Positions 48,608 through 50,805 of a stretch of 64,000 nucleotides of DNA are shown here, piece by piece. Numbering within the stretch: the first letter of the stretch is position 1; each line of letters begins with the position of its first letter. This DNA is from a virus. The notes beneath the pieces are model-generated. The model made no database searches. It was given only the letters and a program-made list of their open reading frames with translations, and was not told the DNA's origin. The stretch is from positions 1-64,000 of the IMG/VR virus record IMGVR_UViG_3300042308_001511. One strand, given 5' to 3'. The position numbers and the translations under genes are program-made.

Positions 48608-50050
48608 CTAAAGCTCGATTGCTTTGATCTCGTTGACAAGTGCGTTCCTGTCTGTCTTCAACAACTCCATAACATCAAAGACTTTTTCTGAGAATCCTGC
48701 CAAACAATATACCTGATTCTCCGGAAATTGCATTGTTGAATATCCTGCTAAATCCCAAGAGAACACGTGTGGGTTAGCACCAGTTTTCTTTTTCCACTCG
48801 TTGAACTGCTTGGTAGGTGTGTCGTAACCAATCCAACCTTGCATATCACTCAAAATTATGATATTATCATAGGACTTCTTCGCAGTTTTGAAGATGGAAG
48901 GGAAGTTTGTACCACCTCCGCTGAACCTGAACGAGTTTCTAATTGACATCACTGAGTCGAGTGGATTATAACTCATATAACGAGCAGACTCCGCGAAAGT
49001 CATTACATCACACGAGTTTACTTTTGCCAAAACCGCACCGAAAAGGCTAGCAATTTCAGATGGTTTACCCATCATAGATCCAGAAACGTCCATAACAACA
49101 AGACAGTTGTCTAGTTTAGGTACGTTCACAACGGATACCTCGAGTGCCTGGTTGATTGCCACGAGTACGTCCCTTACCTCCTTAGATCCACCAAGTCTCG
49201 AAATCTCGTCGTAAGCTGTTGCGAACCTAAATGGAAGTACCTTACTCTTAGAAATCAGTCTCGCATCAACTAACATCTCACATGCCGCAGTAACCGTATC
49301 TGGTGCTTGTTGGATAATGTTTCTGAGGTTTCTAAGAAGTGCGAAATATCCAATCTTCCTGGTTGATACAAGTTCTGCCCAGGCATCAGACTTCAACTGT
49401 TCGAGTTCCTCCGCATTTCCAGCAACCTGACCTGCCGCCGAAAGTTTTGCTTCCCATGTGTCGGTACTCTTCAACTTATCAGTGATAAGTAAAGAAAGTG
49501 CCTCTTTGTTCCTATCAGTAGGAATTGGATGCACGATGTTCACAACATCGACCAATTTGAAGTCTCTGTTCGACATTTTGTACTTTGCAATCTGGTAGTC
49601 ATCGAACTTGTCGAATGCAGCAGCGAACCCCTTTTTGATGGAGTTAGGAAACTTCACCTTACCTTTCCCGTTTTTAGAAAGGTAGTATGATAGGATCTCT
49701 GTCATATCGTCCGGTCTGGAAACAACCTTCTCATAGAAGGATTTACCCCACTCAGCACCAGAAACCAAAGGTGCAATTTCACCTGCCAATGCATGTGTAA
49801 TTGATCTCATTCCGAACCTATCTCTTGCATAAATCGCAGCTTTAGCCGCGAATACAGGATCGACTTTCGAAAGAAGTGACTTCACCTCGGACAATGTATC
49901 CGATGAACCACGATAGAACTGGTCACTAACGAACGACGTTAGTAATACAGAAGCGAGAGCTAACTCGTCTGATTGTTTGTAAGCCTTACCACCAGCTAGG
50001 TTTTCAGTAAGTGTTTTCGCCTTAGGCGACTTTGTGTTGAACTTTGCCAT
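48608..50050 (-). CDS. rsr: Ro60/TROVE-domain RNA-binding protein (Rsr-like)
   Basis: 480 aa from ATG 50050 (MAKFNTKSPKAKT). The track-length frame from 50122 would begin inside a terminator hairpin, so I reject it. Residues about 15-300 form the helical TROVE/HEAT ring (FVSDQFYRGSSDTLSEVKSL, AIYARDRFGMRSITHALAGE, GYFALLRNLRNI). The end is a vWA domain with a MIDAS (VVMDVSGSM near 320, GGGTNF near 380, ILSDMQGW near 405). Ro60 rings bind misfolded RNA ends in the centre and Y RNA outside; in bacteria they act with PNPase in RNA decay. A structured RNA candidate lies directly upstream on the same strand. Codon use is GC-richer than the average here. Confidence 0.93.
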   Translation of the reverse strand: MAKFNTKSPKAKTLTENLAGGKAYKQSDELALASVLLTSFVSDQFYRGSSDTLSEVKSLLSKVDPVFAAKAAIYARDRFGMRSITHALAGEIAPLVSGAEWGKSFYEKVVSRPDDMTEILSYYLSKNGKGKVKFPNSIKKGFAAAFDKFDDYQIAKYKMSNRDFKLVDVVNIVHPIPTDRNKEALSLLITDKLKSTDTWEAKLSAAGQVAGNAEELEQLKSDAWAELVSTRKIGYFALLRNLRNIIQQAPDTVTAACEMLVDARLISKSKVLPFRFATAYDEISRLGGSKEVRDVLVAINQALEVSVVNVPKLDNCLVVMDVSGSMMGKPSEIASLFGAVLAKVNSCDVMTFAESARYMSYNPLDSVMSIRNSFRFSGGGTNFPSIFKTAKKSYDNIIILSDMQGWIGYDTPTKQFNEWKKKTGANPHVFSWDLAGYSTMQFPENQVYCLAGFSEKVFDVMELLKTDRNALVNEIKAIEL

Positions 50051-50072
50051 ATATCTTATAAAAATTAGTATC

Positions 50073-50104
50073 AAAAAAAAGACCGATGTACATGTACATC
50101 GGTC
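50073..50104 (-). terminator. Perfect 24-bp palindrome with T8: terminator of the RNA gene
   Basis: 50081-50104 is an exact palindrome (starts GACCGATGTACA and is self-complementary), followed on the minus strand by eight Ts. It lies between the RNA candidate and the Ro60 ATG, 22 bp before the latter. Confidence 0.85.
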
Positions 50105-50319
50105 TAATAGGAATGCAGACAAGAAAATTTAGCCTAAGCGATACAGAGAATTCTCCCGAAACTCTGCCGGTCATTAAGGTTTGACCTACCTGCCTTTCTT
50201 TTATCGGAAACAAGGCTTTTCCTATGAGCTTATCGTCCTCCAGACGGGCATTTTCACTAGTCCCGCGGTTCCTTTGACCCGGGCATTCGTGGCTTTGCTG
50301 CCGCTAAGCGTTTTCTCTT

Positions 50320-50358
50320 TATAGTTTAGAATTGTCTTACGAAGTATCTTAAACTATA
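50320..50358. repeat. Inverted repeat at the presumed RNA promoter/5' region
   Basis: TATAGTTTA (50320-50328) and TAAACTATA (50350-50358), 9-bp perfect arms 21 bp apart. It could be an operator or an outer stem of the RNA. Between it and the next gene (50497) I see only AT-rich sequence with a weak GGATATATAAC element near 50473. Confidence 0.6.
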
Positions 50359-50496
50359 GCTATGTCTGCGTTCAATATCGACCGAGTAAGTCGAGATAGG
50401 GTGTGTGTCAAATTATTTCAGAAAATCGAAGTAACCCTTTTCTCTCACTACGGCTATTGTCTTAGTTATTGTTATATATCCTCTTTTTTACTTTGT

Positions 50497-50805
50497 TTAA
50501 GAGTTTTGAGGATTTTTTATAGTTTTTATTTCAATTTTGTAAAAGGTACCTTTGCTTTTGTTTTTAGTAGTAGTCTCGTGACAGATTCTCTTTCTCACTG
50601 ACTCACCCTTCAATTTCAGTATTGTTATAGCCTTCTCAATCGACTCTTTGTCGTTGGTTGCGGTTTTTGTAGTTAGTTTGCCCCATCTGTAAGTAGGGAA
50701 TGATGGTTTTATAACGACCTTCATCTCTTGCTCTGATCTCGGTATTGCTTCCCAGATTTCTTGCGAGGTCATCGTTCTCCATACATACTTTACCTTTTCT
50801 TTCAT
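50497..50805 (-). CDS. Hypothetical protein, 102 aa
   Basis: From ATG 50805 (MKEKVKYVWRTMTSQEIWEA); the longer frame from 50853 would run through the upstream terminator. Basic, beta-rich, with a Lys-rich tail; no named domain. The front reads TATTATATTTG, in which TATATTTG matches the Bacteroidota -7 box, with TTTG about 16 bp before it. That spacing is somewhat short for a host-type promoter. Confidence 0.6.
   Translation of the reverse strand: MKEKVKYVWRTMTSQEIWEAIPRSEQEMKVVIKPSFPTYRWGKLTTKTATNDKESIEKAITILKLKGESVRKRICHETTTKNKSKGTFYKIEIKTIKNPQNS

Follow-up and report, generated by a model that had tools for sequence, protein, structure and literature searches.

A phage Ro60 gene with two candidate tandem Y RNAs upstream and a pseudoknotted apical domain

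Does a virus related to the huge phages encode, beside its own Ro60 protein, the Y RNAs with which it might build a Ro particle? The question is raised by a 64,000-nucleotide stretch of viral DNA (hereafter the window; positions 1 to 64,000 of IMG/VR record IMGVR_UViG_3300042308_001511), which belongs to a 344,083-base virus record and in which an earlier note had singled out a Ro60 gene and the structured sequence directly upstream as a candidate phage Ro-Y RNA pair. What we observe there is a Ro-Y cassette, characterized by its gene, its anatomy, its covariation, its conservation and its co-occurrence: a Ro gene (48608-50050) preceded by a simple Y module, M1 (50379-50456), and by a Y module with a large apical domain, M2 (50115-50369), with all of these and the further window features below on the minus strand. 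The proposed pair is supported by a covarying module that recurs at phage and bacterial Ro genes, is conserved with Ro and is absent without it, and we consider it probable that the phage encodes Ro60 together with two cognate tandem upstream Y RNAs, of which M2 would carry an effector or gate arm.

The Ro gene and the noncoding gap upstream

Pfam and PHROG profile searches annotate the product of the Ro gene as a 480-amino-acid Ro60/Rsr homologue with a TROVE ring and a vWA domain. The TROVE domain scores above the Pfam cut-off (PF05731, E=1.3e-17); the vWA_Ro60 match is weak and lies under the curated cut-off (6e-5), and the DxSxS metal motif, of the metal-ion-dependent adhesion site (MIDAS) type, is intact, with D321, S323 and S325 invariant across 32 relatives. 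An AlphaFold2 model built with 32 relatives reached a mean predicted local distance difference test score (pLDDT) of 83.9, and a Foldseek search with this predicted fold returned Ro60 proteins exclusively among PDB matches at E<=0.001 (13 of 13), including 9L5Y ('Ro60 dimer from Thermus phage phiLo') and Deinococcus 2NVO. phmmer likewise links the protein to 9L5Y/9KOP and to 2NVO, a single-protein scan of bacterial genomes gave no match, and no publication describing 9KOP/9L5Y was found in the literature searched. Judged by its TROVE domain, vWA metal site and predicted Ro60 fold, the protein is a full Ro60/Rsr, as the earlier note had read it from the letters. Elsewhere the gene can be interrupted: in three loci (L066, L068 and L096) it is split after about 157 codons by an open reading frame (ORF) resembling an HNH homing endonuclease (L066:3507-4181), and a search for an intron in the split gene of L066 gave no Rfam match.

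Between the Ro ATG and the next same-strand ORF lies a gap of about 446 bp (50051-50496), whose folding energy beats 100 of 100 dinucleotide shuffles (z=-3.0). Its GC content of 0.43 exceeds that of the whole window (0.37) but equals that of the Ro gene, so that little can be read from GC content alone and the description of the gap as GC-richer holds against the window and not against its neighbouring gene. The M1-M2 unit is closed by an intrinsic terminator (50072-50105), consisting of a 26-bp palindrome (50105-50080; arms AGACCGATGTACA/TGTACATCGGTCT) and a T8 run that stops 21 bp ahead of the Ro ATG; the earlier note had recognized this element while giving its lengths as 24 and 22 bp. A terminator-like hairpin and T-run also separates M2 from Ro in the relatives that were printed. 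The M1-M2 region is 92.7% identical to that of the relative L003, as against 79.6% for the Ro gene, its indels relative to L003 are of 1-2 nucleotides, M2 lengths among relatives are evenly distributed modulo 3, and weak translated matches fall in every frame on both strands; we therefore see no conserved reading frame in M1-M2, and on these sequence comparisons M2 is not coding. The hairpin-rich, gene-free character ascribed to this stretch is thus upheld, and a conserved protein frame through it, named beforehand as grounds for giving up the RNA, was not found.

A second hairpin (window ~50470-50516), followed by GATATATA(A)CA, precedes M1 and stands in the same place in L009 and L030-L032, its arms differing among relatives while still pairing (ATCCTC/GAGGAT, ATCCACC/GGTGGAT). 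It is possibly a promoter, or a terminator of the upstream gene.

A two-stem module beside phage and bacterial Ro genes

Comparison of the DNA upstream of related phage Ro genes revealed a recurrent module, in which a lower stem of 4-7 bp leads into a 6-nucleotide UAGYGA-like linker (UAGUGA or UAGCGA), an upper stem of 9-11 bp, UACUUC, a loop or inserted domain, the 3' strand of the upper stem, an 8-nucleotide linker like AAUUUUCU and finally the 3' strand of the lower stem. At least two GNTACTTC motifs occur within 600 nucleotides upstream of Ro in 62 of 67 related viral loci, as against 0/67 within the Ro gene itself and 1/66 on its downstream side, and the two-stem structure forms at 139 of 219 phage sites versus 7 after shuffling the downstream sequence. 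Among 25 simple modules of phages that do not belong to the clade of the window, 97% of cells are paired and the covariation score is 0.892, compared with 0.210 when shuffled and at most 0.202 when slid, values that are inflated because the modules were chosen partly for pairing. Across these 25 modules the 3' linker is also conserved and TACTTC is invariant, as TACTTC is among the relatives of M2.

Because the same selection entered the training of our first covariance model (R1, trained only on phages outside the window's clade), loci of the unseen clade and of bacteria offer the cleaner test. R1 recovered one module in each of the 25 clade loci kept out of training (25/25). The best R1 match in the window, and the only good one in the 344-kb record, is M1 (31.6 bits, E=8e-6), which is made up of a lower stem, UAGUGA, the upper stem GAGAAAAGGGU/ACCCUAUCUC, UACUUCG (50427-50433) and the linker GACUUACU (3' linker GACTTACT, 50385-50392). 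A second model built from M2 relatives, R2, from which both the window and L003 were left out, matches M2 at 158.2 bits (E=4.1e-43) as a single copy in the 344-kb record and reaches four more-divergent relatives at 82-96 bits; R2 also recognizes M1 weakly (E=0.0017), which ties the two modules together. Where the earlier note saw one upstream RNA and could draw no certain Y-RNA fold, there are two tandem modules whose fold becomes clear on comparing relatives. Of the covariance searches that it had proposed, those with the Rfam YrlA and Y RNA models found no match and those with models from Ro-bearing phages found M1 and M2, and the conserved structure that it expected in relatives keeping the TROVE gene exists as a covarying module beside many phage and bacterial Ro genes.

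The bacterial comparison drew on a sample of 80 rsr loci. GNTACTTC motifs lie near 50 of them, with 94 occurrences in the flanks against 5.3 expected, and the phage-trained R1 matches 19 of 29 bacterial rsr loci at E<=1 and 12 of 29 at E<=0.01. In many of these bacterial modules UACUUC is followed by a T arm, a closed acceptor and a D arm, which is the permuted tRNA mimic of YrlA; one from Cellvibrio matches the middle of the Rfam YrlA model (RF02553) at E=8.5e-4 with 25.7 of 69 bits. At its cut-off, RF02553 reports none of 18 bacterial rsr loci that carry modules, and since it misses these bacterial RNAs too, little can be concluded from the lack of a match in the window. In the window we found neither a tRNA nor a YrlA match, with no tRNA-like apical part and no score at the RF02553 gathering level (a weak test), and no vertebrate Y RNA (RF00019) up to E=10. 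Bacterial rsr genes (L109, L119, L148 and others) often carry 2-4 tandem Y modules, and in the loci scanned these stay below the reporting cut-off of the Rfam YrlA model.

The stem module is therefore common to the window RNAs and the bacterial rsr-associated RNAs, since R1 scores M1, M2 has matching stems and linkers, and UACUUC with both stems is found in all of them. Like bacterial Y RNAs, M1 and M2 are encoded beside the Ro gene, on the same strand, directly upstream and kept in relatives. With the bacterial YrlA/Rsr pair the cassette has in common an adjoining Ro gene, basal stems of the Ro-binding type and a compact structured apical domain; it differs in that the apical part of YrlA is a permuted tRNA mimic, whereas M2 bears a pseudoknotted domain without tRNA features and M1 a bare loop.

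In its distribution M2 is tied to Ro. Each of the eight Ro-bearing records that were searched in full also contains M2, and five mahaphages (LR756502, LR756501, LR756504, LR756500 and Lak-C1) lack both. LR756502, a close relative that has neither M1 nor M2, is syntenic with the window on both flanks (DnaB and ribonucleotide reductase on one side, then orf46884 and a methylase), the Ro-Y site being filled by unrelated ORFs. All seven viral contigs with the 3' motif of M2 are Ro contigs (7/7); a motif match on a Ro-less contig (L217) was dismissed as a chance match. DnaB and ribonucleotide reductase of the window phage are closest (79.9-82.2%) to those of LR745206 (634 kb) and LR756502 (642 kb), which we infer to be genomes from the 'huge phages' study, whose Mahaphage clade holds its largest genomes.

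Further Y modules lie within tRNA clusters of mahaphage-like records (L203-L209: LR745206 at 342959, 369033 and 388895; LR756502 at 402448; G001 at 257507; G003 at 197820; G005 at 263151), some simple and some with tRNA-like inserts, and ARAGORN partly calls them tRNA-Leu or tRNA-Ile. The 344-kb record itself holds one marginal tRNA match (G000:C1:81021-81130, plus strand, 29.4 bits), and since its relatives have large tRNA clusters it is probably an incomplete record or a fragment.

Placement also bears on whether M1-M2 is mainly a cis-acting leader, in which Ro would bind the modules in the 5' region of its own gene and the terminator, serving as attenuator, would make the system autoregulatory instead of yielding a stable particle. 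The window suits such a leader, the modules being on the same strand directly upstream of Ro and a strong terminator separating M2 from the ATG. Against it, all or some of the modules of crAss-like, Atuin and Microcystis phages are found downstream of the Ro gene, further copies stand at a distance from it in tRNA clusters, and the conserved 190-nucleotide pseudoknotted domain exceeds an attenuator's needs. A chiefly regulatory leader is decidedly unlikely in our judgement, and a leader role could coexist with the cognate Y RNAs that we favour.

The apical domain of M2

M2 is closed by the lower stem GCAGACA/TGTCTGC (50363-50369/50115-50121), which shows compensatory variants in relatives, and continues through the 5' linker TAGCTA to an upper stem predicted to be of the Ro-binding type (TAGTTTAAG, 50348-50356, with CTTAGGCTA, 50130-50138). 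The 5' strand of this stem is succeeded by ATACTTCG, with the conserved TACTTCG at 50340-50346, and the 3' linker AATTTTCT occupies 50122-50129. Covariation was assessed in 15 M2 relatives, with the window and L003 left out; there 98.5% of upper-stem cells are paired, and the pairs persist despite changes, as with TAAATTGAG/CTCAGTTTA in L049. A local hairpin, UAGUUU/AAACUA, had also been considered as the upper stem and was rejected because it would misplace the M2 insert; the structure scan and compensatory changes place the pairing on the distal CUUAGGCUA strand.

The apical domain (50139-50339), about 190-200 nucleotides in the window, comprises P3 (around GCGACAGC), P4, P5, a pseudoknot, P6 and P7. 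The pseudoknot is of the H type (50192-50222): P5 is formed by GGAAA/TTTCC (50218-50222/50206-50210), and its loop GCCTT (50212-50216) pairs with AAGGC (50192-50196). These loop-pairing arms, GCCTT/AAGGC in the window, covary among relatives as CAG/CTG, CAT/ATG, TATC/GATA, GTTT/AAAC and TAC/GTA, and in the 15-member set all three pseudoknot pairs are altered on both sides (3/3). Across the set as a whole, 96.8% of cells are paired, which falls below 50% when partners are slid, and 14 pairs are changed on both sides compared with 5.1 in shuffles (0/500). About 22 mahaphage-like loci share the conserved domain, with P5 and the pseudoknot missing in some relatives (L030, L031, L036, L038, L046 and L066). 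In a sister phage group (L041, L042, L044 and L047) the second Y module carries a clearly different large insert, perhaps a further type of apical domain.

Against Rfam 15, the window and one relative gave chance-level matches only. This bears on an alternative in which Ro merely has for a neighbour a structured RNA of known type (RNase P-like, tmRNA-like or a group I intron) or a small protein-coding gene. Short ORFs are present, and a GUGAAAAAGUCC stretch in relatives superficially resembles RNase P CR-I, a resemblance that we dropped since it fails to hold throughout the M2 set; but neither the window nor the relative matches Rfam, no frame is conserved, and the ends of M2 are accounted for by Ro-type stems. 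We regard this alternative as largely refuted and exceedingly improbable.

The apical domain appears to be new, no description of it having been found in the literature searched, outside which most subscription papers fall, and for this part the suspicion voiced in the earlier note, that the RNA may be a new class, was well placed. We lean towards reading it as an undescribed pseudoknotted RNA class of ~155-240 nucleotides that would replace the tRNA mimic as the Y RNA effector arm in a mahaphage lineage, so that the phages would possess a Ro ribonucleoprotein specific to them, one having a partner or substrate of its own.

tRNA-like inserts are found beside other phage Ro genes. A third Y module upstream of the Ro gene in L006 (L006:9201-9267) holds a tRNA (52.5 bits) whose parts follow the normal and not the permuted YrlA order, and tRNA genes listed in GenBank beside phage Ro in L011, L017, L020 and L026 overlap or adjoin Y modules; the latter may be misread tRNA-like domains of Y RNAs.

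M2 might instead act chiefly as a decoy, its apical domain titrating a host anticodon nuclease, toxin or other defence RNase while Ro stabilizes it. Such a role has been suggested for YrlA (PMC7790460) and would suit the tRNA-like Y modules of relatives, be they permuted or in normal order, but the M2 domain is not tRNA-like and matches neither tRNA nor YrlA; we consider the decoy unlikely.

A possible Ro particle of the phage

Under the preferred reading, a phage Ro60 with two cognate Y RNAs, M1 and M2 would bind the outer face of the Ro ring by way of their two stems and the linkers. M1 would act as a minimal Y RNA, and M2 would present its pseudoknotted domain at the apical position where YrlA holds its tRNA mimic; it is this position, together with the base for binding, that leads us to see an effector or gate arm in M2. 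The domain may recruit a nuclease or another RNA-handling partner, or control the entry of RNA into the ring, and structured or damaged RNAs of the infected cell (rRNA, tRNA, mRNA) might in this way be sorted or degraded to the benefit of the phage.

Several points weigh against this assignment, beyond the selection that inflates the pairing values of the simple modules. Binding of Ro to M1 and M2 is predicted by analogy with the published lower-stem Ro site of bacterial Y RNAs, reportedly described by Chen (2014) and Sim (2020). The upper stem of M1 is imperfect, R1 itself does not score M2 as a match, and the upper-stem strand of M2 (AACUAU...) has competing local pairing in many relatives. 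Y modules can exist without a phage Ro, as the one in the tRNA cluster of the Ro-less LR756502 indicates, and no RtcB gene was found in the 344-kb record, which leaves an RtcB repair-operon setting unsupported.

Ro binding and gating or tethering are drawn from the literature on Ro60 and Y RNA (PMC8058203), and the partner and substrate are our guesses. One of the close parallels is the Rsr-Y RNA-PNPase particle of Deinococcus radiodurans (RYPER), with which the cassette has in common a Ro60 of the same family (2NVO), an adjacent noncoding RNA and the proposed logic of tether or gate, and from which it differs in being phage-encoded and in having two modules and a larger domain. The cassette suggests that the virus builds its own RNA-handling Ro particle during infection.

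Phage Ro genes and phage Y RNAs are already known. YrlA has been reported for mycobacteriophages (Chen 2014, as cited in PMC12282133), the Listeria phage CKA15 has putative Y RNAs (PMC12282133), and TROVE is present in some jumbo phages (PMC7824862). These cases, together with phiLo (9L5Y), resemble ours in having a phage Ro protein and, in some, a co-oriented noncoding RNA nearby; unlike them, the M2 domain and the tandem Y arrays of mahaphages are not described in the literature searched, and the novelty appears to lie in the effector domain of M2.

The cassette is compact, a Ro gene and two Y RNAs gained or lost as a unit among close huge phages, and because a phage relative of its protein has been crystallized it makes the role of a Ro particle testable beyond Deinococcus. 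The module model detects Y-like RNAs that the Rfam YrlA model misses, and it may account for 'tRNA' annotations beside phage Ro genes. If the reading of M2 is true, Y RNAs would have three kinds of effector arm, the M2 domain joining the simple loop and the tRNA mimic.
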